Of a stretch of 64,000 bases of DNA, positions 39,344 to 64,000 are shown piece by piece. The position numbers and the translations under genes were made by a program. The notes beneath the pieces were generated by a model. It had not been told where the DNA came from and did no database searches. It saw only the letters and a list, made by a program, of their open reading frames with translations. The stretch spans positions 3,348,001 to 3,412,000 of the forward strand of contig NC_013922.1 of NCBI RefSeq assembly GCF_000025625.1. The letters are read 5' to 3'. The stretch's first letter is position 1. Every line of letters starts with the position of its first letter. The stretch is from Natrialba magadii ATCC 43099 (GTDB lineage Archaea; Halobacteriota; Halobacteria; Halobacteriales; Natrialbaceae).

Positions 39344-41152
39344 ATGAGTCGGACGTCCCGCCACGACGAGACAGCATCGAACGCACAGGAATCATCCACG
39401 AAAAACGACGGCGAGCCGGGCTCGAAGCCAGAACCGGCGAGTTCGCTCGACACCCTCGTCATCGGCATCGACGCAGGCTGCATGCCGGTCTTCGAACGCC
39501 TCTTCGAGGAAGACCGCATCCCAACGATCGAACGCCTGTGTACGGACGGTCTGACCGCGCCACTCGAGTCCCAGATTCCGCCGTGGACGCCGAGCGCCTG
39601 GCCGTCGGTCTACACTGGCCAGAACCCCGGCAAGCACGGTGCAATCGGCTTCGTCGGCTACGACGGCTACGACTGGCACGTCACCAGCAACGACGACGTC
39701 GACGCACACCCGCTGTGGACGCTGCTCGACCAGCAGGGGTACTCGAGTGTCGTCGTCAACGCGCCAGTCACACACCCGCCGGACGAGTTCGACGGGGCGG
39801 TGATCCCTGGCTTCCTCGGGCCAGAAGATCCGCTGTGTCACCCTGCGGGTGTGCTCGACGAGGTTCGCGACGAAATCGGCGAGTACCGGGTGTACCCAAA
39901 CTACACGCGTGACGACGACTCAGTGCCCGAATCCGAGAAGATTACCGAGTATCAGCGACTGGTTCAGATGCGCGGTGACGCCTTTCGCTATCTTACCGAC
40001 GAGTACGAGCCTGATTTTGGCTTTCTGCAGTTCCAGAAGACGGATACGGTATTCCACGAGTTTGCGGGCGATGAAGACAAGGTCAACGCCGTCTACGAGG
40101 CGACCGACGAGACGATCGCACAGGTACTCGACGATTGTGATCCGGACCGCGTCTTCCTCGTGAGCGACCACGGCATGGGACCCTACGAGGGCTACGAGTT
40201 CCGGCTCAACGAGTTCCTGCGCGACGAGGGATTCCTGGAGACGACCACGGGCGGCAAGGGGATGCCCTCCTGGACACCGATGCGGCGGCGACTCCGCGAA
40301 GGAGAAGAGTACGACACCTGGGAGCCGGGAACAGTCGCCCGCGCGGCCTCTGTCGCCGCACAGTTCGGCATTACCGCCAGCCGGATTCGGACGGTACTCG
40401 AGCGCGTCGGTCTCGCGGAGCTGGCGATCAAGTACGCACCGAGTGGCGTCTCCCGGACGGCGAACGAACAGGTGGACTTCGGTGAGTCGAAGGCCTACGT
40501 TCGCGCCCGGACGGAACTCGGTGTCCGAATCAATCTCGAGGGGCGTGAACCGATGGGCGTCGTTCCGCCCGCGGAGTACGAGGACCTCCGCGAGGTCCTC
40601 ATGGAGACACTGCGCGGCGTCGAGACACCTGACGGTGAGCCGTTCTTCGAGACGGTCGCGCCCCGCGAGGAGTTCTTCCACGGCGAGAACGTCGAGGAGA
40701 CGGTCGATATCGTGGCGATTCCGGCCGACTTCGAGCATGCACTTTCAGAGCAGTTCCGCGAGGATGCGGACAGCTACTTCGGACCGGTCGAGCCGTGGAA
40801 TCACAAGCTCGATGGTATCTTCGTCGCCGCTGGTGAGGGGATCGACGGGACGGCCGCGGTTGATCGCACGCACCTCTTTGACGTTGCACCGACGGTCCTG
40901 GCCGCGATGGGGGTCCCCTACAGTGAGCGGATGGACGGCGAGATCGTGCCTGTTGTCGAACCGACCGAGGCGATCGAGTATCCTGCCTACGGTGGCATCG
41001 GTACCGTGGACCGTGAGCGAGACGGGTCGGATGGGGCGGGAGATCGGGAACGGGACGACGAAAGCGAAGGCGAACGTCAAAGCGAACGCGAACGGCCCGA
41101 AGCCGACGATGACGTCACGGAGCGACTCGCGGATCTGGGATATATGAACTGA
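39344..41152 (+). CDS. Alkaline-phosphatase-fold phosphodiesterase/nucleotide pyrophosphatase
   Basis: A 602-residue enzyme of the alkaline phosphatase superfamily (type I phosphodiesterase/nucleotide pyrophosphatase). The first metal site is DTLVIGIDAGCMPVFERL near residues 36-53, the nucleophile Thr/Ser region is PPWTPSAWPSVYTGQNPGKHG near 79-99, and the second metal site is RVFLVSDHGMGPYEGYEF near 268-285. A third site lies near HLFDVAPTVLAAMGV at 507. The N-terminal 30 residues and a charged stretch near 560-590 are disordered. No signal peptide is seen, so it acts in the cytoplasm. The position at the start of a glycan island suggests sugar-phosphate or lipid-phosphate substrates. Confidence 0.85.
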   Translation: MSRTSRHDETASNAQESSTKNDGEPGSKPEPASSLDTLVIGIDAGCMPVFERLFEEDRIPTIERLCTDGLTAPLESQIPPWTPSAWPSVYTGQNPGKHGAIGFVGYDGYDWHVTSNDDVDAHPLWTLLDQQGYSSVVVNAPVTHPPDEFDGAVIPGFLGPEDPLCHPAGVLDEVRDEIGEYRVYPNYTRDDDSVPESEKITEYQRLVQMRGDAFRYLTDEYEPDFGFLQFQKTDTVFHEFAGDEDKVNAVYEATDETIAQVLDDCDPDRVFLVSDHGMGPYEGYEFRLNEFLRDEGFLETTTGGKGMPSWTPMRRRLREGEEYDTWEPGTVARAASVAAQFGITASRIRTVLERVGLAELAIKYAPSGVSRTANEQVDFGESKAYVRARTELGVRINLEGREPMGVVPPAEYEDLREVLMETLRGVETPDGEPFFETVAPREEFFHGENVEETVDIVAIPADFEHALSEQFREDADSYFGPVEPWNHKLDGIFVAAGEGIDGTAAVDRTHLFDVAPTVLAAMGVPYSERMDGEIVPVVEPTEAIEYPAYGGIGTVDRERDGSDGAGDRERDDESEGERQSERERPEADDDVTERLADLGYMN

Positions 41153-41246
41153 CCACCCAGAGCCGACAGTCGCAGCCGCTGAAACGGCTTACACACACGA
41201 TAAGTATGGGATCGCGAAATCGAAGCTAGTTCGAACAGAGACCGCT

Positions 41247-41909
41247 ATGGGGTTCATTGCAGAGATACACGTCGCCCACGACGAACTCGTGCTTGCGCCG
41301 ACGATTGCTCATCATCCGGAGGTGACGATCAGGTACGAGTACGAGGTCGAAACTGCGGAGACGATGACGTACTTTGTTTCGGTTTTCACTGACGAGTACG
41401 ACCACCTCGAAGCGACGTTGGAAGCCGATCCCACGGTGTCAGATCCCGCCTGTATCGCGACGTTCGAGAACCGGGCGATCTACCGTGTCCGTGTCGAGAC
41501 GGATCGGCAGCTAATCCCCGAACGCTGTGCCGAGCAGGGGCTGTTCGTCTTTACGATTACGAGCGGCGACGGCGGGTGGGATGCCCGTGTTCACTTTTCG
41601 AATCGGGAGACACTGGCTGCGTTCCGTGAGTACTGTCGCGAACGTGGGATGACGTTCCGGGTACATCAGCTCTACGAGTCCACAGAGTCCGACGACGGCA
41701 CCTACTTTTTGACCGAGCAACAACACGAAATCCTCTCGATGGCGTACTACGCGGGCTACTACGACATCCCGCGCGGTGTCACACAGGACGACCTCGCCGA
41801 ACAGCTCGACATTACCGACTCGGCGGTCTCACAGCGCCTGCGCCGTGCGGTTGCGGAGCTAATCGGGGCCACACTCGATGACGAACGGACACCCGACGAG
41901 TATCGATGA
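41247..41909 (+). CDS. Bat-type helix-turn-helix regulator
   Basis: A 220-residue transcription regulator of the bacterio-opsin activator HTH family. The last 60 residues carry the HTH: LTEQQHEILSMAYYAGYYDIPRGVTQDDLAEQLDITDSAVSQRLRRAVAELI. The first 150 residues form the usual N-terminal sensory domain with strands such as YFVSVFTDEYDHL. It probably controls neighbouring glycan genes, but the regulon is not visible from sequence. Confidence 0.88.
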   Translation: MGFIAEIHVAHDELVLAPTIAHHPEVTIRYEYEVETAETMTYFVSVFTDEYDHLEATLEADPTVSDPACIATFENRAIYRVRVETDRQLIPERCAEQGLFVFTITSGDGGWDARVHFSNRETLAAFREYCRERGMTFRVHQLYESTESDDGTYFLTEQQHEILSMAYYAGYYDIPRGVTQDDLAEQLDITDSAVSQRLRRAVAELIGATLDDERTPDEYR

Positions 41910-42330: not shown

Positions 42331-44082
42331 ATGTCGGAACGAAGTGGTATGCGGAACGCGGTACATGGGGACGGGTGCGACGAAACGGGCACATCGAACG
42401 CTGACACGGATTCTACAACTGGCTTGTCTGCTGGGAACGGAGACGTGAACGGGACCAGGAACGGGACCGAAATCGGAATCGGAGCCGGAACCGGAACCGG
42501 AACCGGAACCGAAATCCAAAACAAGAACCCACCGACCCGATCCCGGCGAACCTTCCTCCAGGGCGCATCGATCGCAGGTATTGCAGCACTCGGCCTCGGG
42601 GCGGGCGCAACGGGCTCTGCAACGGCTGTCCACGAAAACGGCGAAGACTTCGACAACGTCGTCAACATGGTCGACGCTGGCGCGGATCCCACCGGCCAGG
42701 AGTCGATCACGCCGGTACTCGAGAGCGTCCGTGCTGACAACACCATGTTGCTCTTCCCGGAGGGAGAGTACTACATCGACGAACAGTTCCGGTTCACCGG
42801 GTTCGAGAAGTTCGGTATCGTCGGGGACGGTGCCACGCTCGTCCCGGCGAACTATCACGACTTCGACGGGCCGCAGTTTCGCCTGTTTCGGCTCGGCGTC
42901 TCGTACAACCCGGGTGGAAACCTTCTCTTTGAGGGAATCGACGTCGATCAGACGGCACCCGACACGGGGATCCGAGTCATCGAGGCGACGATCGCAGATC
43001 AGCTCGAAGTCCGCGACGTGACGGTCCGCGGCGAGCACGACAGCGGCACGTGGGGACCAGGCATGTTCGCCATGACGGACCCGAACGGCGAGGGAATCGT
43101 CGAACGCTTCCGCGCCCCTGACGGTGGCATGCACGCAGATCGAACGCCGAACGCGGGCAACATCTGGCGCGGCCCGATCGGCATCGAAGCCAACACCAAC
43201 GTCGGCCACATCGAGTTCAAAGACTGCGAACTCGGCGGCTTCCCGGACAACGGCCTGTACGCGATCAACGAGGAGGGCTCCATCTACGTCAACGGCGGTG
43301 AGTTCCGCAACAGCAACGGTGCGAACGTCCGCGTCGGCGGGCAGGGCAGTGTCGTTCGCGGCGCGACAGTCGAAATCGACCGGACGCGCTCGTACGACAA
43401 CAGCCAGCGCGCGGTTCGTCTCGAGAACGGCGACGAACTCCACGTCGACAACGTGGATATCTCGATCACGTCGACACAGCCAACCAGCCACGCCGTCTCG
43501 GTGATGAACACCTGTCACTCCTCGCGAATCGAAAATACGTCGATCGAAATCAGCGGCGACGAGGTGAACCACGGCATCGTCGTCTCGCCAGACGCCGGCT
43601 ACACCCACGTCTACGGCGGCAATATTGTCCACGAAGCGGCCGGCGGCTACCCGTTCTGGATCCGTGACAGCGACAAGGACGATCAGGTGCTCGTCGAACT
43701 GCTCGATATCTCGGGCGAGGCCGGGGTCACCGGCGCCGGCTTCCGCGACGGCATCCGCTGTGGGCGGAACGGCTGTCGGTTCAGCAACGTCTCCGTCGAC
43801 CAGCCCGGTCGCAACGGTGTCGACCGGAACGGAATCTACCTCGCCGGCGACGACACCACCCTCTATCGCTGCACATTCCGGGCCAGCCAGTACCCCTACA
43901 TCGACAACGGGAGCGGTAACCTCCTCCGGAACTCGACGGCTGAGTCCCACAACTCGAATCTCGAAGGCGTCCGCCTCTACCCGGGCATCGACAGCCCCGC
44001 GCTCAGAGTGAACGAGATCGGTAACGGTATCGACGACCTCGGCGCGAGCAACGTCGTCACCTGGCGGAACACGATCGTCTGA
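42331..44082 (+). CDS. Secreted right-handed beta-helix protein (pectate-lyase-like)
   Basis: A 583-residue exported protein. A 70-residue hydrophilic leader precedes the Tat motif SRRTFLQGASIAGIAALGLGAG near residues 71-92. The mature domain is a right-handed beta-helix from about 105 to 570 with repeated strands ending in Asn, Gly and Thr (GIVGDGATLVPANY, VGHIEFKDCELGGFPDNGLYAINEEGSIYVNGGEF, VSVMNTCHSSRIENTSIEI). Such folds bind or cleave acidic polysaccharides. The leader contains a Gly-Thr run encoded by GGAACC hexamers near 42485-42514. It may act on the surface glycan made by this island. Confidence 0.82.
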   Translation: MSERSGMRNAVHGDGCDETGTSNADTDSTTGLSAGNGDVNGTRNGTEIGIGAGTGTGTGTEIQNKNPPTRSRRTFLQGASIAGIAALGLGAGATGSATAVHENGEDFDNVVNMVDAGADPTGQESITPVLESVRADNTMLLFPEGEYYIDEQFRFTGFEKFGIVGDGATLVPANYHDFDGPQFRLFRLGVSYNPGGNLLFEGIDVDQTAPDTGIRVIEATIADQLEVRDVTVRGEHDSGTWGPGMFAMTDPNGEGIVERFRAPDGGMHADRTPNAGNIWRGPIGIEANTNVGHIEFKDCELGGFPDNGLYAINEEGSIYVNGGEFRNSNGANVRVGGQGSVVRGATVEIDRTRSYDNSQRAVRLENGDELHVDNVDISITSTQPTSHAVSVMNTCHSSRIENTSIEISGDEVNHGIVVSPDAGYTHVYGGNIVHEAAGGYPFWIRDSDKDDQVLVELLDISGEAGVTGAGFRDGIRCGRNGCRFSNVSVDQPGRNGVDRNGIYLAGDDTTLYRCTFRASQYPYIDNGSGNLLRNSTAESHNSNLEGVRLYPGIDSPALRVNEIGNGIDDLGASNVVTWRNTIV

Positions 44083-44102
44083 AGCCGAGCACCGCAATCT
44101 GA

Positions 44103-45251
44103 CTACTGGGTCGCTGTCGCTCGAATCAGCTCCCGGAACGTCACGACCTCGAGGTCGCGCTCTTCGATCCACTCGAGTGTCTCGCGAATTCCATCTGCAG
44201 TCACCTCTTCTTTGAACGTGTGGGCACCGATGATGCCGAGGCCCTCGTCGGCGGCGAGCTGGTCGAGTTCAGACTGCACCTGTTCGGGCGTCGTGAACTC
44301 GATGAAGTAGTCGCGGTTCGTATCGAACGGGTCGAACGCGTCCGGATCGTTGTGCATCGAGCCCGGATTGACGTTCGCGATGCCGTCGTAGTGCTCGCGG
44401 GCGTGTTCGATCGCCCAGTCGTCGACGATGTCGTAGGGGGCGAGCAGCGTGTCGATCTCGAAGCCGTGGTCCTCGAGTTCCCGTTTGGAGCGCCCGAGAA
44501 AGTCATCCATCACGTCGTCCGGATATCGCTCGACGGTCTCACCTGCGGCGAACGACTCTCCGATGGGTTCGTCGAACTCGAGATAGCCGCCGATATCGTC
44601 AGTATCTGAGTCGTCGACGGTCCGACGAACACTCGTCTCACCGTCGGTGATTTCGACGTCGTGTCCGTGGTGGAAGCCGTGATTTCGCTGTTCGGGGTAG
44701 ATGCGGGTATCGCCCGGGTCGACGTCTTCGACGAGATCGAACGCGCCGAGTGCGGTGTGATCCGTCGTATGAGACATGATCTCCCAGCCGGCGTCCTCGA
44801 GTTCGGCGATCTGTTCGACGGTCATCCAGTCGGTTCCGTTGAAGTCCTCGCGGCCGATCCACTCGGTGACGATGCCCGCGCTCGCGGGCGCGTCGAACTC
44901 CTGGTGGACCGGAAACGCCTGCTCGTAGTCTTCGATCGGGCCGTCGTCGTAGACGAAAGCGACAGCGCCGCCGTCGATTTCGGGGATGTCGTCAGCTGTC
45001 TCCTCGTCCCCGTTTCCGTCTCCATCGCTATCGCCGCTATCGCCATCACTGCCATCAGTCTCGCCACCATCACCGGACGCGTCGCCGCTACCGTCGTCAG
45101 TGCCATCCGTACTCGAGTTGTTCGATGCTGGACTCTCATCGTCCGACGAACGGAGGTCGGTACAGCCGGCGGTCAGGCCGGTGAGGCCGAGGCCGGCGGT
45201 GCCCATGAGTCGGCGACGACTCAGGCGGCGTTCTGTCGGTTCGGTACCCAT
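44103..45251 (-). CDS. Secreted polysaccharide deacetylase lipoprotein A
   Basis: A 382-residue NodB-family protein. Residues 9-30 (LSRRRLMGTAGLGLTGLTAGC) form a Tat lipoprotein signal. An acidic Ser/Asp/Gly linker follows to about residue 90. The deacetylase domain has the first catalytic motif YDDGP near 100 (typical T-F-D-D-G) and the zinc-binding SHTTDHT near 159, with the third motif NPGSMH later. It should remove acetyl groups from an extracellular N-acetylated polysaccharide. It converges on the beta-helix gene with 20 bp between them. A TATA-like ACTTATAAG on the minus strand lies about 30-40 nt upstream of the start. Confidence 0.85.
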   Translation of the reverse strand: MGTEPTERRLSRRRLMGTAGLGLTGLTAGCTDLRSSDDESPASNNSSTDGTDDGSGDASGDGGETDGSDGDSGDSDGDGNGDEETADDIPEIDGGAVAFVYDDGPIEDYEQAFPVHQEFDAPASAGIVTEWIGREDFNGTDWMTVEQIAELEDAGWEIMSHTTDHTALGAFDLVEDVDPGDTRIYPEQRNHGFHHGHDVEITDGETSVRRTVDDSDTDDIGGYLEFDEPIGESFAAGETVERYPDDVMDDFLGRSKRELEDHGFEIDTLLAPYDIVDDWAIEHAREHYDGIANVNPGSMHNDPDAFDPFDTNRDYFIEFTTPEQVQSELDQLAADEGLGIIGAHTFKEEVTADGIRETLEWIEERDLEVVTFRELIRATATQ

Positions 45252-45516: not shown

Positions 45517-45609
45517 GTGGCTACCGATCGCGAACGATCGACGAACGGGAGCGCTGGACAGCGGGTCGATCGGCGATGGCGGTCGGTGACTTCGGAGGTT
45601 GATCTATGA
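45517..45609 (+). CDS. Candidate 30-residue leader peptide coupled to the flippase
   Basis: A GTG-started open frame of 30 codons begins just after the predicted transcript start and ends in TGA overlapping the flippase ATG as ATGA. The peptide is basic (Arg-rich) with no known motif. Its position argues for translational coupling; coding is not proven by any other sign. Confidence 0.3.
   Translation: MATDRERSTNGSAGQRVDRRWRSVTSEVDL
45594..45599 (+). promoter_or_regulatory. Shine-Dalgarno site of the flippase gene
   Basis: GGAGGT six bases before the ATG at 45606. Strong Shine-Dalgarno sites are rare in the leaderless genes of this window, and it supports the choice of start. Confidence 0.65.
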
Positions 45610-47246
45610 ATAGAAGCATTGCAAGCGGTATCTTCTCGGTCGTCAGTACGAAGGTGATCGTTCTCATTGTTACTGCCCTCTCGACGCCGCTGCTGTACCG
45701 GTTCCTCGGTGCGTCGGGGTTCGGCGATTACTCCTTCCTGATGTCGGTGTTCGCCATCTACATGATCTTCGTGAGTTCTGGCATCACGGATGGCGTCCGG
45801 AAGTTCCTCGCAGAGGATCGAAGCGCAGCCAACTGGAGCGAGCACGTCGTCGGCTACTACTTCCGGCTCGCGGTGATCCTCGCCGTCGTGGGTGCAGCCT
45901 TGTTGCTCGCAAGCGTCCAGTTCGGACTCGTCAGCCTCGCCTTCGGCGACGAGTTGGCGATTTACTTCTACGCACTCGCGCTGCTCGTTATCACCGCGCA
46001 GTTTCGCGACTACGCGCGCAAGACGCTCATGGGGTTCGGACTTGAGCGCTACTCCGAGCCGCTGAAAGTGCTTGACAAGGTCGGCTTCGTCGTCGTCGCG
46101 ATTCCGCTCGTCTACGCTGGCGCTGGCGTCCTCGGCGCGCTCGCGGGCCACCTCTTTGCGAGCCTGCTGGTTGCGACGGTCGGGCTGCTCATCGTCCACC
46201 GTCGGATCTCGCTCTCCTGCGTGTTCAGCACGCCCAGCTCTGACTTCCCACGAAAGAAGATGCTCACGTTCAACTCGATGAGCATCGCGCTCGTTTTCCT
46301 GTTGATGTCGCTCTATCACATCGACATCGTGATGCTCCAGCAGTTCCGCGAGAGCGCCGACGTCGGAAACTACCGGGCTGCACTCACACTCGCGGAGTTT
46401 CTCTGGTTCGTCCCGCTCGCCCTCCAGACGGTGTACGTCCACTCGACATCCGAACTCTGGTCGCAGAACCGTCACCGGAAGATCACCGAACTCGCCTCGC
46501 GAACGACCCGATACACGTTGCTGTTGACGGTGATCATGGCAGTCGGTCTCGCCGCACTCGCAGACGTCGCCGTCCCGATCTACTTCGGCGAGGAGGCAGT
46601 GCCCGCGATCGAGCCGCTCTTGCTCTTGCTCCCCGGCGCGCTTGGCTTCGCGCTCGCACGGCCGGTGCTCGCTATCTCGCAGGGCAACGGCACGCTCAGA
46701 TACCCCGTCGCCGCAACCGGTGTCGCGGCGCTCATCAACGTGATCCTCAACGCGCTGTTGATCCCGCGCTATGGAATGCACGGTGCGGCGGTCGCGACGA
46801 GCGTCGGCTACGGCTCGATGTTCGTCTTCCACTGCGTGAGCGCGCGTCAGATCGGCTTCGATCCGCTCGCGGACGCCCGAGTCGGGCGCGGCCTTCTCGC
46901 CGCGTTGCTCTCCGGTGGGCCGATCTTCGCGCTCTCGGCGGCGATCACACACCCGATTCTCGCGCTCGTACTCGTCCCGCCGGTCGGCTTCCTGCTGTTC
47001 GTCGGTTTCGCCGTCCTCGTGGGCGCACTCGATCCGACGGAACCGTTCGAAATCCTCGGCCTCTTCCCCGATCCGATCGGCTCGAAGGCGGACGCGATTC
47101 ACGACCGACTCGAACGCTCGGCCGCAAGTCATGGCGAAACCTCACGGGGCTGGCTCCAGCGACTGCTGTTCGTCGTCGGCCTCTCGCTACTCGCCTCGGG
47201 ACTCGCGCTTAGCTTCCTCGGCCCAGCAGTCGACGCACTGCTCTGA
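45606..47246 (+). CDS. Wzx-type oligosaccharide flippase
   Basis: A 546-residue polytopic protein with about 14 transmembrane helices, of the polysaccharide biosynthesis/MATE-like (MOP) superfamily that flips lipid-linked sugars. The N-terminal half starts STKVIVLIVTALSTPLLYRFLGASGFGDYSFLMSVFAIYM, typical of the family; later GNYRAALTLAEFLWFVPLALQTVYVHS and ATGVAALINVILNALLIPRYGMHGAAVATSVGY match the conserved second half. It probably moves lipid-linked oligosaccharide out for the surface glycan (AglR-like role inferred). Confidence 0.88.
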   Translation: MNRSIASGIFSVVSTKVIVLIVTALSTPLLYRFLGASGFGDYSFLMSVFAIYMIFVSSGITDGVRKFLAEDRSAANWSEHVVGYYFRLAVILAVVGAALLLASVQFGLVSLAFGDELAIYFYALALLVITAQFRDYARKTLMGFGLERYSEPLKVLDKVGFVVVAIPLVYAGAGVLGALAGHLFASLLVATVGLLIVHRRISLSCVFSTPSSDFPRKKMLTFNSMSIALVFLLMSLYHIDIVMLQQFRESADVGNYRAALTLAEFLWFVPLALQTVYVHSTSELWSQNRHRKITELASRTTRYTLLLTVIMAVGLAALADVAVPIYFGEEAVPAIEPLLLLLPGALGFALARPVLAISQGNGTLRYPVAATGVAALINVILNALLIPRYGMHGAAVATSVGYGSMFVFHCVSARQIGFDPLADARVGRGLLAALLSGGPIFALSAAITHPILALVLVPPVGFLLFVGFAVLVGALDPTEPFEILGLFPDPIGSKADAIHDRLERSAASHGETSRGWLQRLLFVVGLSLLASGLALSFLGPAVDALL

Positions 47247-47644: not shown

Positions 47645-48742
47645 TCAGTACACCTGCGCCTCAAGCTGCTCGCTCTGGGCCATGTCGAACACCATCGCGA
47701 ACAGCAAGAGCGACACGCCAAGCGCGAAGACCAGCACGCTCGCGACACCCTCCAGGAACGGCACCGATAGCTGCGAGAGCGCAATGAATAACGTCCAGAG
47801 TCCAGCGAAGACGCCGACGCCAGCGGTCGCCGCGCCAAAGAGGTAGAAGAACGCAAGCGGATGGAAGTCGAGCGCGAGATACTTCGTCTTGAGCCGCCAG
47901 AAGAAGTTTCGCAGGAGCATCGTCGACACCTTCGGAATGTACTCCGAGTAGGTGATACTCGACTCCTCGTCGCCGTACACCGCCGGCATCGCCACGTCCG
48001 CGACAGCCATGTCCTCGACGTTTAACTTCACCAGCAGGTCGTTACAGTAGCCGTAGTATTCATAGAGCTCCTCGAGTGCAACCGACTCGAGTGCCGCCTG
48101 CGAGATGGCGGTGTAGCCGTTCTGGGGGTCCATCGTCTTCCAGTAGCCCGAGGCGACCTTGGTCAGGAACGTTAGGATGGTGTTGCCGATGAACCGAAAT
48201 CGCGGCATTGCCTCGCGGTACTCCGCCGAGAGAAGGCGATTCCCCTTGGTGTAGTCGGCCGTGCCCTCGACGATCGGGTCGAGGAGCCGCGGCATCTGTG
48301 AGAGGTCCATCTGGCCGTCCGCGTCGACGGTGACGGTCGCGTCGACGCCGTCCTCGCGGGCGGCGAGGTAGCCGGTTTTGATCGCGCCGCCGGCACCGAG
48401 GTTCTCGCGGTGTTGAATCGGCACGACACGACCGATCGGGTCGTGGACCTGTGCGCGACTCGCCAGCGCCGAGGTGCCGCCGTCGGTGGCGATGTCGGCG
48501 TAGCCCTCCTCGCCGCTGTCGTAGCGCTGTTCGGAGGCTCGTTCGTGCCCAGTCGAGTTCGTTCGTGCGTCTCGGTCCGTCGCTGCGGCCTCGCGAATCT
48601 CCTCCCAGGTGTCGTCGGTCGACTGATCGTCGATGATGTACATTCGGTCGACGTACGCCGGCATCTCGGCGATGACGTCGCCGACGAATCCTTCCTCGTT
48701 GTACGCCGGGATCACGACGCCGACGCTACAATCTCGGTACAT
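47645..48742 (-). CDS. GT2 glycosyltransferase with C-terminal membrane helices
   Basis: A 365-residue family-2 transferase. The GT-A nucleotide motif VVIPAYNEEGFVGDVI is at residues 9-24, and the metal site TVDADGQMDLSQM is near 137-149, with the late KVASGYWKTMDPQNGYTAIS near 195. An Asp/Gly-rich insert lies at residues 55-100. Two transmembrane segments end the protein (FHPLAFFYLFGAATAGVGVFAGLWTLFIAL, VLVFALGVSLLLFAMVFDM), a layout shared with dolichol-phosphate sugar synthases. It likely charges the lipid carrier or adds a sugar on the cytoplasmic side. Confidence 0.88.
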   Translation of the reverse strand: MYRDCSVGVVIPAYNEEGFVGDVIAEMPAYVDRMYIIDDQSTDDTWEEIREAAATDRDARTNSTGHERASEQRYDSGEEGYADIATDGGTSALASRAQVHDPIGRVVPIQHRENLGAGGAIKTGYLAAREDGVDATVTVDADGQMDLSQMPRLLDPIVEGTADYTKGNRLLSAEYREAMPRFRFIGNTILTFLTKVASGYWKTMDPQNGYTAISQAALESVALEELYEYYGYCNDLLVKLNVEDMAVADVAMPAVYGDEESSITYSEYIPKVSTMLLRNFFWRLKTKYLALDFHPLAFFYLFGAATAGVGVFAGLWTLFIALSQLSVPFLEGVASVLVFALGVSLLLFAMVFDMAQSEQLEAQVY

Positions 48743-48810: not shown

Positions 48811-48866
48811 TCAACTGCGCACCAGCGTCACGGCTCGTTCAACTGCGCACCAGCGTCACGGCTCGT
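48811..48866. repeat. 28-bp perfect tandem duplication over a stop codon
   Basis: Two identical 28-bp copies, 48811-48838 and 48839-48866. The second copy contains the stop codon of the deacetylase-like gene B (48856-48858), and the first gives a non-coding repeat of that end. Perfect identity implies a recent event. Confidence 0.9.
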
Positions 48867-50285: not shown

Positions 50286-50310
50286 GCCCGTGGCCGCCGA
50301 AACGCAAGCA

Positions 50311-52657: not shown

Positions 52658-52885
52658 GAGCGAGACAGTTGCTCCGCTATCAGTCGAGTCAACCGTTTGA
52701 ATAGGATATCTTTGCGGCACGAAAAGTGAGTGGACCAGTTAGAGCCACGACCATTGTCGTCTTGCAACAGCACGGACCGCTTCCGGCCGGTGATTTCGCC
52801 GCACCGTTCTCGAGTACAAAACCGCCGCTGTAACGGTCTTACGCGCGCTATAGTAAACAAATCCGGGTAGAGAGTGGGAACTGGA

Positions 52886-55653: not shown

Positions 55654-55918
55654 GGTACCTCGTCCGTACCGCCAGTGAGCCCATTATTATGGATCCGATA
55701 GCCGCTCACGAGTCTGTCTCGTTGACTCCCTGAATCGGCCGAATACCGCCGCCTCGGGACTTAACAACGGCATAGTTAATGACCACTCGACCGCAGGCGT
55801 GAAACAACAGCTGCGTGGATGGCACTCGAGTAGCCGAGTGGGACTCCTGTTCCGCAGGTCGGTGCCACCCCGCGTCTTCGCGACGAGGATTTCCAACGAC
55901 TCCCAACGACTTCCAACG

Positions 55919-57643
55919 ATGAACAAGGAACTGTTCGGTGTATTCGGCGATAGTGAGGCGTTCGAGCGGTTTCGATCACCCGACGAGTTCGACGAGTTTC
56001 TCTGTGGCTCGTCGCTCACCGTCGGCATCAGAGACCCTGGCCTCGACTACGACGGCTGGAGCGCGACGCACACTGACGACACTGGCTGCTGTGTGCTCTG
56101 GGGTGAAGCGTACGTGCCCGGTGACGAGCAAAACACCGCACGCTGGCTCCTCGAGCGCTACGATGCCGATGGGCTCGGTGCACTCCACTCGCTCAACGGC
56201 TCGTACCTCGCCGTTCTCGACGTTCGCGGTGAGGATCCGTTCGTCGCAGCAGACCCCGTTCGGTCGCGTGAGTGTTTCTACACTGCGGCACACGACGCTC
56301 GTGCGAACTGTGATGGCTGGGTGTTCGGCACCGACGCGGCTGCCGTCGGACAGACCGTTTCGGATCCAACAGTCGATACCGACGGGATACTCGAGTTCCT
56401 CCACATGGGGCTCTCGCTCGGCGAGAAAACCTGGGTAGACGACGTGTCGCGGCTCCCGCTCGATAGTCGCCTCACACCCGATGGCGTCGATTCACTGTCA
56501 CGGTTCGTCTATCAACCGGCAGAGCTCGACGAGTTCGACTACGTCGACGAACTCGCCTCACGGCTCGACCGGGCGATACGCCGCCGCTCGTCGAATCCAG
56601 GACCGAAGGGACTCTTGCTCTCTGCGGGCTACGACTCGCGGATCGTCCTCTCACAGGTTGACGGGATTGACCATTGTTACACTGTTGGCTCCCCAACCGC
56701 ACAGGAGGTCCAGGGTGCGAAACAGGTCGCGACCCAGTACGGCGCAACCCACACCGCGTTCACACCGGACGACCGGTACCTGTACGCCGACGAGTCGAAA
56801 GTTCGGTACTCGAACGGGATCAAGGAGTCCTTGCACATCCACCACGCCGGCTATACCGACGAACTCGCAGGCGAGATCGAAACGATGTATCACGGACTCC
56901 TCTGTGATACCTTCTTCCGCGGACACTTCACCGCCCAGGACGGCGTCGACGTCCTCGGTGCGCGCGTCCCCTTCAACCGCCTCGACCCGGATCCAGACCC
57001 CATCGAATCGCTTCTCGGAAAGTACGGCTACAGACGCGACGCCAGTCTCGATCTCGCCGAGCGAATCGGAATCGACCACGACCCCGAAACGTTCGTTCGA
57101 GAGTCCATCGCCGCTGAATTCGCCACGAACCGCTCGCGAGCGAACTCGATTCAGAACGCACTCACCTGCTGTGGCATCGCCAATCAGCCGTCCGTTCCGT
57201 TCCACAACCACCTCTCCGACCACTTTTTCACCCCGTTTCTCGCGACGGATATCGAACTCCTCGAGTGGCACCTACAGACACCGCCGGAGTATCGCACAAC
57301 GGAGACGTTCCTGCAGGCGTGTCAGCGACTCGATGACGATATTCTTCGCCATCGACCACCGGATCGGCCCCACGGGACGATGCTGCTGAACGAAGTCGAG
57401 GGGTTTGTGCGGCGCAAAACGCCGTTGCTCACGTCGTTCGAGCCGCCGTGGCCCGACCGACGGGAACTGTTCGACCGCTACGAACTTGACCAACGGCTTC
57501 TCGGGTCGACAGCACAGCTCCATCCGCTCCCCCCCAGACACAAGCTTCGAGTAAACGATCTGCAAACGTGGCTCGACTTGTGGGACCCAGGAAGCAACGA
57601 GTTACTACCCTGGTTGCAGCAACCGGCACGGATTTTGTCATAG
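55919..57643 (+). CDS. Asparagine-synthase-like protein lacking the glutaminase cysteine
   Basis: A 574-residue protein of the asparagine synthetase B family. The C-terminal synthetase domain has the ATP-pyrophosphatase loop LLLSAGYDSRIVLSQ near residues 227-241 (S-x-G-x-D-S). The N-terminal part has the glutaminase-like fold (LNGSYLAVLDV near 91) but starts MNKELFGVFG, so the Cys2 nucleophile needed to use glutamine is absent. It may use ammonia or another amine, or adenylate a sugar acid. The setting in a glycan island suggests an amide on a surface polymer. The start at 55919 follows a repeated CGACTTCCAACGA-type leader. Confidence 0.8.
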   Translation: MNKELFGVFGDSEAFERFRSPDEFDEFLCGSSLTVGIRDPGLDYDGWSATHTDDTGCCVLWGEAYVPGDEQNTARWLLERYDADGLGALHSLNGSYLAVLDVRGEDPFVAADPVRSRECFYTAAHDARANCDGWVFGTDAAAVGQTVSDPTVDTDGILEFLHMGLSLGEKTWVDDVSRLPLDSRLTPDGVDSLSRFVYQPAELDEFDYVDELASRLDRAIRRRSSNPGPKGLLLSAGYDSRIVLSQVDGIDHCYTVGSPTAQEVQGAKQVATQYGATHTAFTPDDRYLYADESKVRYSNGIKESLHIHHAGYTDELAGEIETMYHGLLCDTFFRGHFTAQDGVDVLGARVPFNRLDPDPDPIESLLGKYGYRRDASLDLAERIGIDHDPETFVRESIAAEFATNRSRANSIQNALTCCGIANQPSVPFHNHLSDHFFTPFLATDIELLEWHLQTPPEYRTTETFLQACQRLDDDILRHRPPDRPHGTMLLNEVEGFVRRKTPLLTSFEPPWPDRRELFDRYELDQRLLGSTAQLHPLPPRHKLRVNDLQTWLDLWDPGSNELLPWLQQPARILS

Positions 57644-57752
57644 TATAGCACTGCAATCGGGTACTTTCTGTGCGGGAGACTGCGGTCAATCTTTCCGGAA
57701 ACAGCCGCTAACGACCCTCTATATCGTTTATTGTATTTGAATCGTGAGAATA

Positions 57753-57760
57753 CTTATATA
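57753..57760 (+). promoter_or_regulatory. TATA box of the DUF7344-like gene
   Basis: CTTATATA centred 27 nt before the ATG at 57783, the ideal leaderless spacing. It excludes the GTG at 57744 as the start. Confidence 0.6.
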
Positions 57761-57782
57761 CCACGGGGAATTAGGCTGGAAT

Positions 57783-58421
57783 ATGCGTCTGACGCCGTCT
57801 TGGATTCGCTCTTCATCGGCCGATACCACAGAAGAGCACTCAGTAGATGGCGACGCCTCACTCGATGTCCCAATCTACTACACCTCAGACGGGGACGACT
57901 CGGTTTCTGGCCGCGATGGGGCTGTACACACCGAAAACGATACGCAATCCGCGGCCGCGTTCGTACCCGAGTCGGACGCGACACTGCTTGCAGTGCTCGA
58001 TGATCTGTCGACTCCCGTGACTGTCGATGAACTGGTCGATCAATTAATTGGACGAGCAGGTCGGCCACACTCACCCTCGGAAAGGGAGTCACTGGCATCG
58101 CCATCGACAGCCTCCCCAGAGTCGACGGTTTCCGTCGAAACGTGGGCAACGATTCACGAACGCCTCCACGAGGACCGACTTCCAAAACTCGATGCGGACG
58201 GTGCACTCGAGTTCGATCCGGCACGTGGGACGATCGATCATACACAGTCCGAGACAGGAGACCAGACGATGTTCTCCCCGGCAGTTCTCGGCACAGTGTC
58301 GATTGGATTGCTCTTCGTACTCGCGATTCTGGTGACGGCGTCGATGTACACGGCAGTAACAGTGACAGTGGCAGCAACGACGTTTGCAGTTTGGCTTCTT
58401 CCGGCCTACGGCGTCGTATGA
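57783..58421 (+). CDS. DUF7344-like winged-helix protein with membrane helices
   Basis: A 212-residue protein. The central part ATLLAVLDDLSTPVTVDELVDQLIGRAG with ETWATIHERLHEDRLPKLDADGALEFDPARGTI at about 72-180 has the winged-helix layout common in haloarchaeal regulators of the DUF7344 type. Two hydrophobic helices end the protein (about 165-210, GTVSIGLLFVLAILVTASM). It likely senses at the membrane and binds DNA. It converges with the similar gene at 58474. Confidence 0.72.
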   Translation: MRLTPSWIRSSSADTTEEHSVDGDASLDVPIYYTSDGDDSVSGRDGAVHTENDTQSAAAFVPESDATLLAVLDDLSTPVTVDELVDQLIGRAGRPHSPSERESLASPSTASPESTVSVETWATIHERLHEDRLPKLDADGALEFDPARGTIDHTQSETGDQTMFSPAVLGTVSIGLLFVLAILVTASMYTAVTVTVAATTFAVWLLPAYGVV

Positions 58422-58473: not shown

Positions 58474-59112
58474 TCAATTGATGAATCGGCTGGCGGTCAC
58501 CAGCGTGAACAGGAACAGAATCAGTGCACTCAGGCCAATCCCAGAGATAATCGAGAGGACCGGCAGTTCGAAGACGGCACCGAGCAGTGCGACGTAACAG
58601 ACTGCGGTCGCACCGATGTAGTAATCGTCGCCGATCGAGATCGTCGGCGTGTCGTCCTCGTCTGCCGCTTCGTCCTGTTCGGTAACCTGGAGGTACTTGT
58701 CGACCTCGTCTGCGAGTGGCTTGCGTTCGACGATACCACGGTTTTGCTGGTAGTCGATCACGCCGGCTTCGTCGAGTTTCGAGAGATGTGACTGGTACAG
58801 CGGAATGTAGACTCGCTGGCGTTGCGTCGAGGTCAGTTCAGCAACGGTGGTGTCGTGTTCCCAGGCTGCGACCTGCTCTGCGACATCGCGCATACGGACT
58901 GGCTCGTCAGTTCCCCGGAGATACCGGAGTACAAGCCTCCTGCGTTCATTTTGCAGCAAGTGGAATATTTCGTCCTCGGTGAACGTTTCGTCGCGTTCGC
59001 CGTTCTCGTTGTTCTCACTCTCGACGTCCTCGACAGTCTCTCTCTCGTCAGCCCCGCCTGCGGACTCTTCCTCCGTTTCCTGTGCGTTCGAGCTGATATG
59101 TTTCGCTTTCAT
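58474..59112 (-). CDS. DUF7344 winged-helix membrane regulator
   Basis: A 212-residue protein with a disordered acidic N-terminus (to residue 42). The winged-helix domain is at 43-145: DEIFHLLQNERRRLVLRYLRGTDEPVRMRDVAEQVAAWEHD and YIPLYQSHLSKLDEAGVIDYQQNRGIVERKPLADEV, matching the haloarchaeal DUF7344 domain. Two transmembrane helices end the protein near 165-208. A TTTATTA TATA-like element lies about 30 nt upstream, with a perfect palindrome at 59167-59179 just beyond. Confidence 0.82.
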   Translation of the reverse strand: MKAKHISSNAQETEEESAGGADERETVEDVESENNENGERDETFTEDEIFHLLQNERRRLVLRYLRGTDEPVRMRDVAEQVAAWEHDTTVAELTSTQRQRVYIPLYQSHLSKLDEAGVIDYQQNRGIVERKPLADEVDKYLQVTEQDEAADEDDTPTISIGDDYYIGATAVCYVALLGAVFELPVLSIISGIGLSALILFLFTLVTASRFIN

Positions 59113-59499: not shown

Positions 59500-60483
59500 A
59501 TGAGCGACACCGATTGGTGGTTTCTCGATCTGGCAGTCGTCATCGCAACGACGGGGGCACTCTCGATCGGTCTCTTCACCGCGATTTCGGGACCCGTCCG
59601 CATCGCACTCGCCCTCCCGCTCGTTCTGTTTCTACCGGGGTATGCACTAGTCTCTGCCCTATTTCCGGACGAAGCGGATGAGACGTACCAGGACTTCGAC
59701 GAGGAGAAAACCGGCCTTGGAAACCCCCTGTTGTTGACCCGGGGACTCGAGCCGATCGAGCGTGGCATCCTGTCAGTCGTCTTTAGCGTCGCCATCGTTC
59801 CAGCGATCACCCTTTTCGCGAGTGCAACCCCCAGGGGTTTGACGCTCGATCCGGTGCTCCTCGGGATTGCCCTGACAACGATCATCCTGTCACTGATCGC
59901 GATTGTTGCTCGGTATCGGTGCCCGCCGGATCAGCGGTTCGCTCCGACACAGACCAAACTATCAGTATTTTTCCCACGGTTCCGCCCGAACTCCTACTCT
60001 AAGACGAATCCGCGCCCGTACAACATCGCGATCGTCCTCGCGCTCGGTGTCCTCCTGCTGAGTGCTGGATTCGCTGTTGCCAATCCGCCACAGCACGAGG
60101 GCTACACCGAGTTCGCAGTCGAGACGAGCGAGGTCGACGGTGACATCGAAACGATGTACGATGCGGAGTACACTGCTGGCGAAGCGACATCGCTCTCCGT
60201 CTCGATCACGAACCAGGAACACAGCGAGCAGTCGTACACGACCGTCGCACTGCTCGAACGCGTCGACGACTCGGGAGAGCCCGCTGGCGAGGCAGAACAA
60301 CTCGCGAGCACGTCGACCACGATCGCCGATGGCGACACGGCAGAACCGACACTCGAGTTCACCCCGTCGATGCAGGGCGACGATCTGCAGGTGACGCTGT
60401 TGCTCTACCAGGGTGAAGCGCCGGCAGAGCCGGATGCGGAGTCGGCGTATCGAGTGATCGAGTTGCCGGTTGTCGTCGAGTGA
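59500..60483 (+). CDS. DUF1616 membrane protein
   Basis: A 327-residue protein of the DUF1616 group. Four transmembrane helices are near 8-30, 35-52, 85-110 and 112-133, with the family's conserved block LPLVLFLPGYALVSALFP. A fifth helix is near 178-198. The C-terminal 130 residues (from about 205) form an extracellular Ig-like domain: YTAGEATSLSVSITNQEHSEQSYTTVALLE. Function is unknown; genes of this type recur near surface-glycan and cell-envelope genes. A TATA-like element lies 30 nt before the ATG. Confidence 0.82.
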   Translation: MSDTDWWFLDLAVVIATTGALSIGLFTAISGPVRIALALPLVLFLPGYALVSALFPDEADETYQDFDEEKTGLGNPLLLTRGLEPIERGILSVVFSVAIVPAITLFASATPRGLTLDPVLLGIALTTIILSLIAIVARYRCPPDQRFAPTQTKLSVFFPRFRPNSYSKTNPRPYNIAIVLALGVLLLSAGFAVANPPQHEGYTEFAVETSEVDGDIETMYDAEYTAGEATSLSVSITNQEHSEQSYTTVALLERVDDSGEPAGEAEQLASTSTTIADGDTAEPTLEFTPSMQGDDLQVTLLLYQGEAPAEPDAESAYRVIELPVVVE

Positions 60484-60560
60484 GCAGGACGGCTGCGATT
60501 GGCACTGCTGTAGAGACACAGACAGGTGGCTTTTTTGTGGCCCACTAGTTTTGTGAACGT

Positions 60561-60866
60561 ATGATTTACGACCTCGTCGGATTCGTCCTCCAGTTCGCAG
60601 TGCTGGTCTTTGCGGCGTACCTCGGCACGATGCTCGCGCTCGGTCAGTTCCACCGACAGACGACTGGGGAACCGGGCGAGACGATGGCTCTCAGCCACCG
60701 GCTGACGCCGCGTTTTATGCGGCCGAACCACGAGCAGTATCTCTCCCCAGCGGACGATCAGAACGCGTCTGCATCGGCTGCTGGGCCGACTACCAGCGAG
60801 GAGTCGGCCGAAGATGATTCCAACCATGACGCGACCGCCAACGCGGAGAACGACACTGATCGGTAA
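60561..60866 (+). CDS. Small one-helix membrane protein
   Basis: A 101-residue protein with one transmembrane helix near residues 5-27 (LVGFVLQFAVLVFAAYLGTML) and a Ser/Asp/Ala-rich disordered tail from residue 65. The middle stretch GETMALSHRLTPRFMRPNHEQ is hydrophilic. It follows the DUF1616 gene by 77 bp. No function is recognised. Confidence 0.62.
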   Translation: MIYDLVGFVLQFAVLVFAAYLGTMLALGQFHRQTTGEPGETMALSHRLTPRFMRPNHEQYLSPADDQNASASAAGPTTSEESAEDDSNHDATANAENDTDR

Positions 60867-61234: not shown

Positions 61235-63211
61235 TTACGTCGCCGGCGACGGTGCACACATCGTCACCTCACCGTTCGTGTACACCGTCGCGTGGTGTGG
61301 CTGACAGAGTCGGTCCTGAGAGACCTGTTCGATCCGGCCCTCGCCGTTCTCGTCGTTGAAGTACGTCGCATCTGTCGACTGCGTCGTCCGGTAAACGACG
61401 TACTCGTGGTCTGCAGTCCCGTCATCGGGCACCGTCGCTGTCGTCGTCGACGGATAGGCCCCCGTTCGACTGATCACCGTCTGATAGGGGTGGTCCGTGT
61501 GTAACTGCTGATCCGGTCGAATGTCCTGGCCGTCGGGACCACCAGTGAGCTCGCCGATACTCGAGACGGCCGCGAGTTCAGCCTCGGTGTAGGCGAGTTG
61601 CTCGTGCTGGTCGGAGAACACCGGGTTCTCGGCGTTGCTCTCGACGGCGAAGAGCATCGCGCCCGGGTAGATGAGTGCGACCAGCAACAGGACGGCGACG
61701 ACGACGCCCGGCGACAGGTCACGAGCGAGCGTTCGGATGCCAATTGCACCGAGAATCGCCATCGGCGCGTAGAGGAACGCGAACCAGCGCGTCGGGATGA
61801 AGTTCCGGATGCCGAACATCGGCAAGACGAGGACGAATATCAGCATAATCGCGGCGGCGAGGAGTAGCGTGAACACCGACTGCTCGGCGCGCCGGCGGTG
61901 GACGACGTAGAGACAGCCGGCGAACGTCGCACCGAGCAGGAACAGGAAGCCGAGCGCGTCGATGTAGGGGATTGCCTGCTCGAGCAGCGACGCCGTCGCC
62001 TCCCCACCGTCCGCTGCCATGTCGTCGCCGGTGCTTCCGCTCGCGATGTTGAGGAAGCCAGCGCTCTCCTCGAGTGTCTGTGTGAAGAAGCTGAGCACGG
62101 TCGCGAGGAACGACTGCTCGCGGTAGGGCGTCAGCGACCAGACAAAGATCGTCAGCCCGAAGTTGAAGACGACGAGTCCAATGAGGTTGACCGGTTTCTT
62201 CGCCCGGAAGACGCTCGTATCGAGGCGGGTGAGTCCGAACGGCCCAATCACGAAGACCACCTGTGCGACAAACGCGGCGAGCAGGAGGACGAGGGTGATG
62301 AACGTCGACACCTGGTGGGTAAGAATAATCGCAACGCTCAGCAGGATCAACAGCGAGAAGTCACGCATCGTGTATTCGATGCGCATCACGCGGATGAGCG
62401 CGTACAGGATCGCGAGGAAGAACACCAGCCCGAGGCTCGTCGGGATGAGGTGCAGCCCCCACATCGAGACGTGACTGGTGAGCGCGAACAGCGCCGTTGC
62501 CAGCACAGCCCAGCGCTCGGAGACGAGCAGATTCGTCGTCGCATAGATGAGCAGGACCGATAGCGGCATCACGATACCGACGGAGAGGTACAGCGCGAGT
62601 CGCAGTGGCACGTCGAGCAGAAGCGACGACGCGACGACGAGCAGATGATAGAACGGCGAGGCGTAGTGTTTATCGTGCGAAATCGCACTGAGGGACTCCT
62701 CGGCGTGGATCGCCTCGACGAACTCCATGTGCGTCCAGACGTCGATTCCGATGTAGCCCGGTGTCGCGTATAACGCGGTAAACCGGAAGACGAGCGCGAA
62801 GAGAACGATCTGGAGCAACAGCAGCCGCCGGTTGAACACCTCTTCGCTCGTAAAGAGGATCTGGACGACGACGAGCGTCGCCAGGACGCTCGCGGCCGCG
62901 AAGTACACCGGCGTGCGCGCTCCCTGCAGGACCGTCAGAACGACCAGCGCACCGAGTCCGGCGAGGACGATACTCGGGAGTGTCATCGCGACAGGGCGAG
63001 GCAGTCGCGGCAGTGCCGTGGTTGTGTCCTGTTGATACAACGCGAGGAGATACAGCGCACACGCTGTCCCGAGGACGAACGGCACCGTGTTGAGGTAAAT
63101 CTGTGACGCAACCAGTCGCAGCGGCAGGAGTCCAACTGCTAACAGGAGGCCGATGATCGCCGCGACGGTATCGAGCCGAAACGGTCGCAGTTGCGAGATC
63201 CTGTTATACAC
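61235..63211 (-). CDS. Polytopic GT-C-like membrane protein
   Basis: A 658-residue protein with about 14 transmembrane helices in the first 500 residues and a soluble, probably external, C-terminal domain of about 140 residues. The early loop TPGYIGIDVWTHMEFVEAIHAEESLSAISHDKHYASPFYHLLVVA holds acidic and His residues in the place where GT-C glycosyltransferases keep their catalytic site. I infer a sugar transferase using a lipid-linked donor. The start is uncertain; a GTG at 63211 overlaps the stop of the upstream glycosyltransferase by eight bases (GTGTATAA), and longer in-frame starts exist. Confidence 0.68.
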   Translation of the reverse strand: MYNRISQLRPFRLDTVAAIIGLLLAVGLLPLRLVASQIYLNTVPFVLGTACALYLLALYQQDTTTALPRLPRPVAMTLPSIVLAGLGALVVLTVLQGARTPVYFAAASVLATLVVVQILFTSEEVFNRRLLLLQIVLFALVFRFTALYATPGYIGIDVWTHMEFVEAIHAEESLSAISHDKHYASPFYHLLVVASSLLLDVPLRLALYLSVGIVMPLSVLLIYATTNLLVSERWAVLATALFALTSHVSMWGLHLIPTSLGLVFFLAILYALIRVMRIEYTMRDFSLLILLSVAIILTHQVSTFITLVLLLAAFVAQVVFVIGPFGLTRLDTSVFRAKKPVNLIGLVVFNFGLTIFVWSLTPYREQSFLATVLSFFTQTLEESAGFLNIASGSTGDDMAADGGEATASLLEQAIPYIDALGFLFLLGATFAGCLYVVHRRRAEQSVFTLLLAAAIMLIFVLVLPMFGIRNFIPTRWFAFLYAPMAILGAIGIRTLARDLSPGVVVAVLLLVALIYPGAMLFAVESNAENPVFSDQHEQLAYTEAELAAVSSIGELTGGPDGQDIRPDQQLHTDHPYQTVISRTGAYPSTTTATVPDDGTADHEYVVYRTTQSTDATYFNDENGEGRIEQVSQDRLCQPHHATVYTNGEVTMCAPSPAT

Positions 63212-64000
63212 CACTGGAAACACCTCGCTGCGCAGTTTTCGATCCGGATCGCGCGGTCGGATCGAGCAGGCGCTCATACAGCGACACGAGTCGGTCGCCC
63301 ATCGAATCGAGACTCAGACCGTCGATGCGCTCCCGACCCTGCGATGAACCGCCGTTCTCGAGTGCAACCGTGAGCCCGACCCCCAGTTCGTCGTCGTCGT
63401 CGCTGACGAAGCAGTTGGGAAGTCCCTCGACGGTCTCGGCGACGAAACCGACGTCGGTGGAGACGACCGGGAGGTTGCAGGCCGCGGCTTCCTTGACGAC
63501 CATCGGGCCGCTCTCGCGCTTCGAGGTCACGAGCAACACGTCGCTCGCGTTCATGTAGTACGGAATCTCGGCGTGGTCGACGCCGCTAACGGTTCGGAGT
63601 TCGACATCGACGCCCGCCTGATCGACGAGGCGTTTCGCCCGCGGGAAGTCCTTGACCGCGCGCTCGCGGTCGTAGGGAAAGAGCGCGATATTTGTATCGG
63701 GATCGGTGTCCCATCCGAGATGGTTGCGAGCCTCTGCCTGCGGAATCGGACGGAACAGTTCCGTGTCGACGCCGAAGGGAATCAGTTCGTGGTCGATCTC
63801 GAGTTGGCGCGACATCACCGGGCTCGGAACGACGGTCGCGCTCGCGCGACGTGCGCCGTGCCGGCTGAGCGACCGGAGCCACTCCTGGTCAGCCATGAGG
63901 TCCGTTCCCCACAGTGTCAGGACGACCGGCCGAGTCGGCTGAGCGAGCGCGAACGGGGCGACCAGCCCGTAGTTCGCGTGGACCAGATCGTACTCGTCAG
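63204..64000 (-). CDS. GT4 glycosyltransferase, 5' end outside window
   Basis: The frame continues past the window edge, so the N-terminus is missing. The visible 265 residues belong to a retaining GT4-family transferase. The acceptor/donor domain has LWGTDLM near the edge, LIPFGVDTELFRP, and the donor-site ending VLLVTSKRESGPMVVKEAAACNLPVVSTDVGFVAETV with the E-x7-E motif. It would transfer a sugar from a nucleotide donor in the cytoplasm. It ends 8 bp into the next gene, so the two form an operon. Confidence 0.85.
   Translation of the reverse strand, partial: DEYDLVHANYGLVAPFALAQPTRPVVLTLWGTDLMADQEWLRSLSRHGARRASATVVPSPVMSRQLEIDHELIPFGVDTELFRPIPQAEARNHLGWDTDPDTNIALFPYDRERAVKDFPRAKRLVDQAGVDVELRTVSGVDHAEIPYYMNASDVLLVTSKRESGPMVVKEAAACNLPVVSTDVGFVAETVEGLPNCFVSDDDDELGVGLTVALENGGSSQGRERIDGLSLDSMGDRLVSLYERLLDPTARSGSKTAQRGVSSGV

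Follow-up and report, generated by a model that had tools for sequence, protein, structure and literature searches.

What does a block of some 25 adjoining genes in Natrialba magadii ATCC 43099 make, in which a flippase and several glycosyltransferases (GTs) lie among exported glycan enzymes? The block starts at position 39344 of the window (the whole 64,000-nucleotide stretch analysed, contig NC_013922.1, positions 3,348,001 to 3,412,000 of the forward strand) and runs approximately 13.7 kb beyond its end. We propose that its genes form a pathway of their own for a surface glycan, apart from the AglB N-glycosylation locus, with a product that is most likely (probability roughly 0.6) a cell-bound, acidic, partly N-deacetylated exopolysaccharide (EPS) or capsule. 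The core of the cluster is held together across about 20 genera, far beyond chance placement. Genes were called from reading frame, composition and homology and scanned with profile hidden Markov models (HMMs) against Pfam and NCBIfam; gene starts are approximate. Positions marked L008 belong to a stretch that overlaps the window end and whose position 1 is window position 60001. The genes on which the argument turns are given below (Tat, twin-arginine translocation; TM, transmembrane).

42331..44082, plus strand, right-handed beta-helix protein, Tat-exported (twin-arginine signal, AlphaFold model)
44103..45251, minus strand, Dac1, Tat lipoprotein, NodB-type deacetylase (PF01522, E 4.1e-9)
45606..47246, plus strand, Wzx-type flippase (PF01943, E 3.1e-13; PF13440)
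47645..48742, minus strand, GT2a, dolichol-phosphate sugar synthase-like GT2 with two C-terminal TM segments (PF00535, DADGQM motif)
48856..50148, minus strand, Dac2, Tat lipoprotein with an N-terminal jelly-roll-like and a NodB-like domain (motif inspection of orthologues)
50290..51399, plus strand, GT2b, cytoplasmic GT2 glycosyltransferase (PF00535, E 8.9e-38), position conserved
51485..52657, plus strand, ATP-grasp ligase, sugar-transfer-associated (ATPgrasp_ST, PF14397, E 1.8e-28; RimK-like by NCBIfam)
52874..54106, plus strand, AstE/M14-like zinc deacylase with PKD domain, Tat-exported (PF24827, PF18911)
54319..55653, minus strand, Dac3, Tat lipoprotein with a jelly-roll-like and a NodB deacetylase domain (PF01522)
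55799..57643, plus strand, AsnS, asparagine-synthase-like protein, true start probably 55919 (PF00733, TIGR01536)
57744..58421, plus strand, small conserved protein with TM segments, weakly DUF7344-like (PF24035 below cutoff)
58474..59112, minus strand, DUF7344 helix-turn-helix (HTH)-type protein with C-terminal TM segments, probable regulator (PF24035, E 3.7e-30)
59500..60483, plus strand, DUF1616 membrane protein with external domain (PF07760, E 2.9e-87)
61235..63277, minus strand, GTC, polytopic GT-C_A-fold transferase (AlphaFold and Foldseek)
63204..64181 equivalent (L008 3204-4181), minus strand, GT4 glycosyltransferase crossing the window end (PF00534)
L008 4188 to approximately 5288, minus strand, DUF354 (GT-B-like) protein, past the window
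L008 5401-6939, minus strand, nucleotide-sugar dehydrogenase, past the window
L008 8923-11040, GlmS
L008 13526-15559, NodU/TobZ-type carbamoyltransferase
within L008 15784-18225, Dac4, fourth Tat-exported, lipobox-bearing NodB-like protein

GT4, GTC, DUF354 and the dehydrogenase form an operon-like run on the minus strand. The inventory agrees with a first-pass annotation made from the sequence alone, which had named a flippase, two GT2s, a GT4, a GT-C-like protein, a sugar-linked ATP-grasp enzyme and an AsnS-like enzyme (all recovered by gene calls and HMM scans, the GT-C protein by its fold) together with five Tat-exported proteins. Indeed, all five exported window proteins, including the beta-helix and the PKD-bearing AstE-like protein, bear twin-arginine signals in their translations, and the three NodB-type ones also a lipobox cysteine. 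Two minus-strand calls, 45501-47132 and 42328-44172, were dropped because homology and synteny favour the opposite-strand flippase and beta-helix genes.

Is this set inherited as a unit? The cluster proteins were compared by tblastn with 40-kb stretches from 20 relatives. The same gene order was found in eleven genomes of several genera and a rearranged one in two (G007 and G006), while the remaining relatives held little beyond an ATP-grasp relative; in one relative the cluster likewise comes after an inosine monophosphate dehydrogenase gene. A scan of named genomes with an AsnS alignment gave 57 loci, found in Natrialba, Natrinema, Natronorubrum, Haloterrigena, Natronococcus, Natrarchaeobius, Halobiforma, Natronosalvus, Natribaculum, Halostagnicola, Halostella, Saliphagus and others, and also in Haloprofundus, Haladaptatus, Halogranum, Halobellus and Haloferax. 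Both GTC and GT2b were present in 37 of them (full-core loci). Besides GTC, which is there by definition, AsnS, the 57744 protein, DUF7344 and DUF1616 were found in 37/37, and Dac3, GT4 and DUF354 in 36/37. The other counts were 34 for Wzx, 33 for the dehydrogenase, 32 for GT2a, 27 for Dac2, 22 for the beta-helix protein, 20 for AstE, 14 for ATP-grasp and 9 for Dac1; those of the outer genes are lower bounds, as the stretches reach 10 kb to each side.

Among 125 sampled genomes of the family, relatives in which are not independent of each other, AsnS was found in 85, GTC in 89 and ATP-grasp in 62. AsnS and GTC lay within 12 kb of each other in 78 of the 84 genomes that have both, which is more association than chance would give; AsnS and Dac3 lay within 3 kb in 76/84, and all three were together in 75/84. 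The first-pass annotation had held that scattering of these genes in relatives would speak against a common pathway. The core is not scattered, but the ATP-grasp gene is: it is close to the cluster in 27/84 genomes only and absent from most clusters, and the central role given to it was dropped in favour of an accessory one. The variable presence of Dac1, Dac2, AstE, beta-helix and ATP-grasp genes, the regulators and small uncharacterised proteins interspersed and the use of both strands might also be read as the mark of a region that collects unrelated surface genes and encodes no single pathway; with the core together in 78/84 genomes and about 20 genera, synteny largely refutes this explanation and we regard it as very improbable. 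The locus had also been called an island. It is better taken as a conserved cluster of the family; a horizontally acquired genomic island is not supported, since the gene order is family-wide in many genera and the composition is close to the window average except for a dip at 57-61 kb. There, over the DUF7344/DUF1616 stretch (window 57744-61000), G+C is approximately 0.55-0.57, though few genes of the cluster are better conserved than those in this stretch.

Is the pathway distinct from N-glycosylation? The aglB gene lies 2.46 Mb away, in a cluster (0.925-0.965 Mb) equipped with a separate GlmS, dehydrogenase, flippase and set of GTs, the last at most 33% similar; relatives of the Tat-exported enzymes or of AsnS were not found in the aglB stretch. 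A genome search with TIGR04154 (archaeo_STT3) returned AglB at C1:948032 (C1 being the contig that carries the window) and, below cutoff, a partial paralogue at C1:108952-111033; GTC at C1:3409238 was not matched. N-glycosylation by an AglB within the cluster was rejected, since no AglB is encoded in the 57 named loci or the 20 regions and aglB itself is 2.46 Mb away. The separation from AglB-dependent N-glycosylation proposed at first pass is thus supported.

How might the glycan be made? From gene content, co-conservation, gene order, export signals, catalytic motifs and the GT-C_A fold class, all taken from sequence or model, we infer substrates, step order and product as follows. GlmS and the nucleotide-sugar dehydrogenase would supply uridine diphosphate (UDP)-activated N-acetylhexosamine (HexNAc) and a UDP-uronic acid, from which GT2b, GT4 and the GT-B-like DUF354 protein would build a dolichol-linked glycan to be turned outward by the Wzx-type flippase, and GT2a may load one sugar, likely a uronic acid, on dolichol phosphate. 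In the cytoplasm, the glycan may be substituted with an acyl, amino or carbamoyl group by the glutaminase-less AsnS and, in some species, by the ATP-grasp enzyme and the carbamoyltransferase. Outside, GTC would use the lipid-linked sugar of GT2a (or the whole glycan), a putative pairing of an AepG-type donor with a transferase of the AftA/oligosaccharyltransferase (OST) type; the membrane-tethered Dac1 and Dac3 would deacetylate HexNAc, Dac2 and Dac4 may be partners that bind glycan without catalytic activity, and trimming or deacylation of the product may fall to the beta-helix and AstE-like proteins. Reduced forms of the cluster occur in Haloferax, where a phosphohexomutase and a GlmU-like nucleotidyltransferase accompany GlmS, dehydrogenase, DUF354 and GTC in variant loci, which suggests a HexNAc/uronic-acid glycan.

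AepG is a GT2 resembling dolichol-phosphate-mannose (DPM) synthase which makes dolichol-phosphate-linked glucuronic acid for the acidic EPS of Haloarcula hispanica, not for N-glycans (PMC9943897). GT2a matched PDB 5mlz, a DPM synthase (E 9e-6), and most of its orthologues have DADGQM, an instance of the AepG-type DADxQx motif; with TIGR04182 it scored 84 bits against a cutoff of 325 and is therefore not AglJ. In several genera (L095, L099, L104, L105, L111, L114 and L117) DUF354 and the dehydrogenase of the GTC run flank a GT2a relative, an arrangement that connects the GT-C enzyme with a lipid-linked sugar donor.

Class II glutaminase domains carry a catalytic N-terminal cysteine. In AsnS, the N-terminus reads ELFGVFG or near it in 49/49 sequences and Cys2 is absent, so glutamine hydrolysis is unlikely, and the PP-loop ATP site SxGxDS is kept in nearly all 49. 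This pattern suggests an ATP-dependent ligase that works with ammonia or an amine; for the internal amidation of the polymer suggested at first pass, a glutamine-driven form is not supported. A PDB sequence search with profiles of GTC, AsnS, DUF354 and the beta-helix protein gave no match.

The exported proteins differ in how well their catalytic residues are kept. Dac1, whose presence varies among loci, has the motifs YDDG, HTTxH and GAH of a canonical CE4/NodB enzyme in 10/10 aligned sequences. Dac2 had no match in Pfam, and its orthologues have FDGT, ARPRTG and HFE in place of the DDG, His and catalytic-His motifs; by its sequence it is a conserved pseudo-deacetylase, predicted to have lost metal and catalytic residues and kept in many genera. 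Thus, of three deacetylase-type proteins announced at first pass, all three have the NodB-type fold but Dac2 lacks the catalytic residues. In Dac3, which weakly matches PgaB, WDDG and LNFH are kept in 37/38 sequences, a His pair is spaced HxxH and a third His is present in most. The AstE-like deacylase, an accessory member of the cluster, keeps HGNE and DLHES in all 19 sequences. The beta-helix protein had no match in Pfam; its AlphaFold model (pTM 0.79) has PfbA, polygalacturonases, AlgE4, the RbmB lyase and tailspikes as nearest solved folds, and because these matches are weak only a class is assigned, a probable glycan lyase, hydrolase or epimerase. Synteny, Tat and lipobox signals and catalytic motifs together bear out the notion of a surface-glycan cluster with an external modification set.

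GTC had no match in Pfam or NCBIfam. An AlphaFold model built from 37 sequences (pTM 0.76, pLDDT 72) has a GT-C_A transmembrane fold, with TM-scores of about 0.4. Foldseek ranked AftA first (3e-5), followed by AglB/STT3 (4e-5 to 1e-3) within a group of archaeal, eukaryotic and bacterial OSTs including PglB (E 4e-5 to 3e-3), and then by ArnT, DPY19 and Pmt4. The statement that no OST gene is present holds for AglB in the cluster, but the closest solved folds of GTC are AftA and OSTs. With such a fold, and with no Wzy-type polymerase recognised, the first-pass choice of a free or anchored polysaccharide over a protein-linked glycan is no more than likely, and ligation to a protein or lipid is possible. 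The OSTs among these folds, and the fact that more than one glycosylation pathway is known in haloarchaea (PMC5867893), raise the question of whether GTC works independently of AglB as an oligosaccharyl- or glycosyltransferase on the S-layer or Tat lipoproteins, with the Tat enzymes editing a protein-linked glycan. This second protein-glycosylation pathway is possible but unlikely: AftA is the top match and ArnT, DPY19 and Pmt4 match as well, a WWDxG motif is missing (no WWD in the window GTC or 43 orthologues), TIGR04154 misses GTC, and exported deacetylases are typical of polysaccharide systems. The AftA- and ArnT-like matches, a GT2a that could give a lipid-linked donor and the lack of a recognised polymerase in the scanned cluster genes would also suit a glycolipid or lipid-anchored glycan, in which GTC extends or caps a lipid-linked saccharide retained in the membrane. 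Since a Wzx-type flippase and several exported glycan enzymes suggest a larger extracellular product, and a lipid-specific enzyme was not seen in the cluster, we consider this quite improbable.

Some points also weigh against the EPS or capsule. A Wzy-type polymerase, an O-antigen ligase or a known anchor gene was not recognised by Pfam in the scanned cluster genes, where distant polymerases could be missed; the confidence of the GTC model is moderate (pLDDT 72, TM-scores of about 0.4); the predicted fold is also that of OSTs; and deacetylase activity of Dac3, judged by its motifs, is no more than plausible, given a non-canonical His spacing (HxxH). In its favour, exopolysaccharide-like material was seen around N. 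magadii by transmission electron microscopy (PMC3403918). That paper lists singly two polysaccharide deacetylases (Nmag_3271 and Nmag_3278), three glycosyltransferases (Nmag_3273, 3275 and 3285) and a polysaccharide biosynthesis protein (Nmag_3272); in its available part the region is not treated as one entity. Going by tag number and annotated type, these six entries would fit the cluster. In the open-licence literature, no match was found for a described cluster of this make-up or for a mention of the locus tags.

Does the glycan matter to viruses? A Dac3 profile (residues 59-437) matched PDB 8qpg chain TC (413 residues) with E 3.4e-26, and tblastn found the matching gene in HFTV1, gp31 (L140:290-1531). 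Gp31 is described as the turret head protein, in which a galactose-binding-like domain is combined with a zinc-binding domain of deacetylase type (PDB 8QPG/8QPQ; PMC12494034). It shares the two-domain layout of Dac3 over nearly the full length and keeps the NodB motifs; unlike Dac3, it belongs to a virus capsid turret and has no Tat signal, and the identity between the two is approximately 24%. A link to a Dac3-type host glycan cluster is not stated in the available part of PMC12494034. A search with gp31 of 293 genomes of the order placed the top two matches in tailed-virus modules.

L169:9534-11027 (G047:C37), gp31-related deacetylase-domain protein in a tailed-virus module with tape measure
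L170:9594-11591 (G299:C1), gp31-related deacetylase-domain protein in a tailed-virus module with portal and terminase

These genes contrast with PMC12494034, which reports no homologues in other haloarchaeal viruses. By position comparison, the next four matches lie at the Dac2 place of the cluster (G067, G110, G107 and G049). In a tree of gp31 and host deacetylases, long branches meet and the placement is not settled, and therefore we do not say which way a gene may have moved. A reduced cluster (L136) is present in Haloferax gibbonsii ATCC 33959, a strain of the species to which the HFTV1 host LR2-5 belongs. The cluster glycan as HFTV1 receptor is, on these sequence comparisons, a lead and not demonstrated. 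It is doubtful, though conceivable, that GTC founds an AglB-independent archaeal route of glycan ligation or polymerisation, with OST- and AftA-like features, and that tailed viruses of haloarchaea use deacetylases of the host family to attack its product, a conserved target on the cell surface.

The cluster includes further genes, which are as follows.

39344..41152, plus strand, alkaline-phosphatase-superfamily protein (AP; type I phosphodiesterase-like) at the cluster edge (PF01663, E 5.8e-33), same edge position in relatives
41247..41909, plus strand, Bat-type HTH_10 regulator (PF04967, E 1.8e-17; PF15915), position conserved
60561..60866, plus strand, small membrane-anchored hypothetical protein (gene call), matched in near relatives only
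L008 7235-8134, DUF7343 regulator
L008 12147-13109, CarboxypepD-like surface protein

An export signal was not evident in the translation of AP. By eye, a leucyl-tRNA synthetase-like gene is next after Dac4 in L008. AP has paralogues at C1:3141298 (51%) and C1:3578189 (55%). At 3.14-3.15 Mb an AP paralogue lies with GlmS, GlmM-like and nucleotidyltransferase-like genes, and at 3.57 Mb AP, DUF1616, Wzx-like and beta-helix genes are again together. The genome has three full GlmS genes: that of the cluster, one near aglB (C1:940232) and one near the AP paralogue at 3.15 Mb (C1:3148505). Elsewhere in the window, repeats at 31381-31500 read as RN dipeptides at the start of an open reading frame and may reflect a miscalled start or a simple repeat.

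The genetics of archaeal EPS is poorly resolved; for H. hispanica, PMC9943897 speaks of an unknown pathway. The EPS question becomes genetically testable with a cluster that about two thirds of the sampled family genomes share and in which a clear core can be told apart from an exported editing set, and the architecture shared by Dac3 and the turret protein gives a concrete hypothesis on what HFTV1-like viruses act on.

How, then, does the cluster compare with known systems? With the acidic EPS system of H. hispanica (AepG/HAH_1206, HAH_1661-1667), as far as the available text of PMC9943897 describes it, it shares a DPM-like GT2 with DADxQx motif and C-terminal TM segments, which would likewise feed a surface glycan independent of N-glycosylation, and a uronic acid is plausible here by virtue of the nucleotide-sugar dehydrogenase. 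In contrast, AepG sits in the aglB cluster, the likeness of GT2a to it is one of motif and architecture, and an exported deacetylase/beta-helix/AstE set is not reported in that text. AglB clusters (Haloferax volcanii agl and the N. magadii aglB region) have the same dolichol-linked logic, flippase, GT2/GT4, GlmS and nucleotide-sugar dehydrogenase, but the surface-glycan cluster is without AglB. Bacterial Wzx/Wzy and poly-N-acetylglucosamine or Pel EPS systems (PgaB, PelA) likewise combine a flippase (here of the Wzx type by PF01943 and PF13440), GTs and extracytoplasmic NodB deacetylases; unlike them, the N. magadii cluster has a GT-C enzyme where no Wzy or synthase was recognised, and its deacetylases are archaeal Tat lipoproteins with a jelly-roll-like domain.

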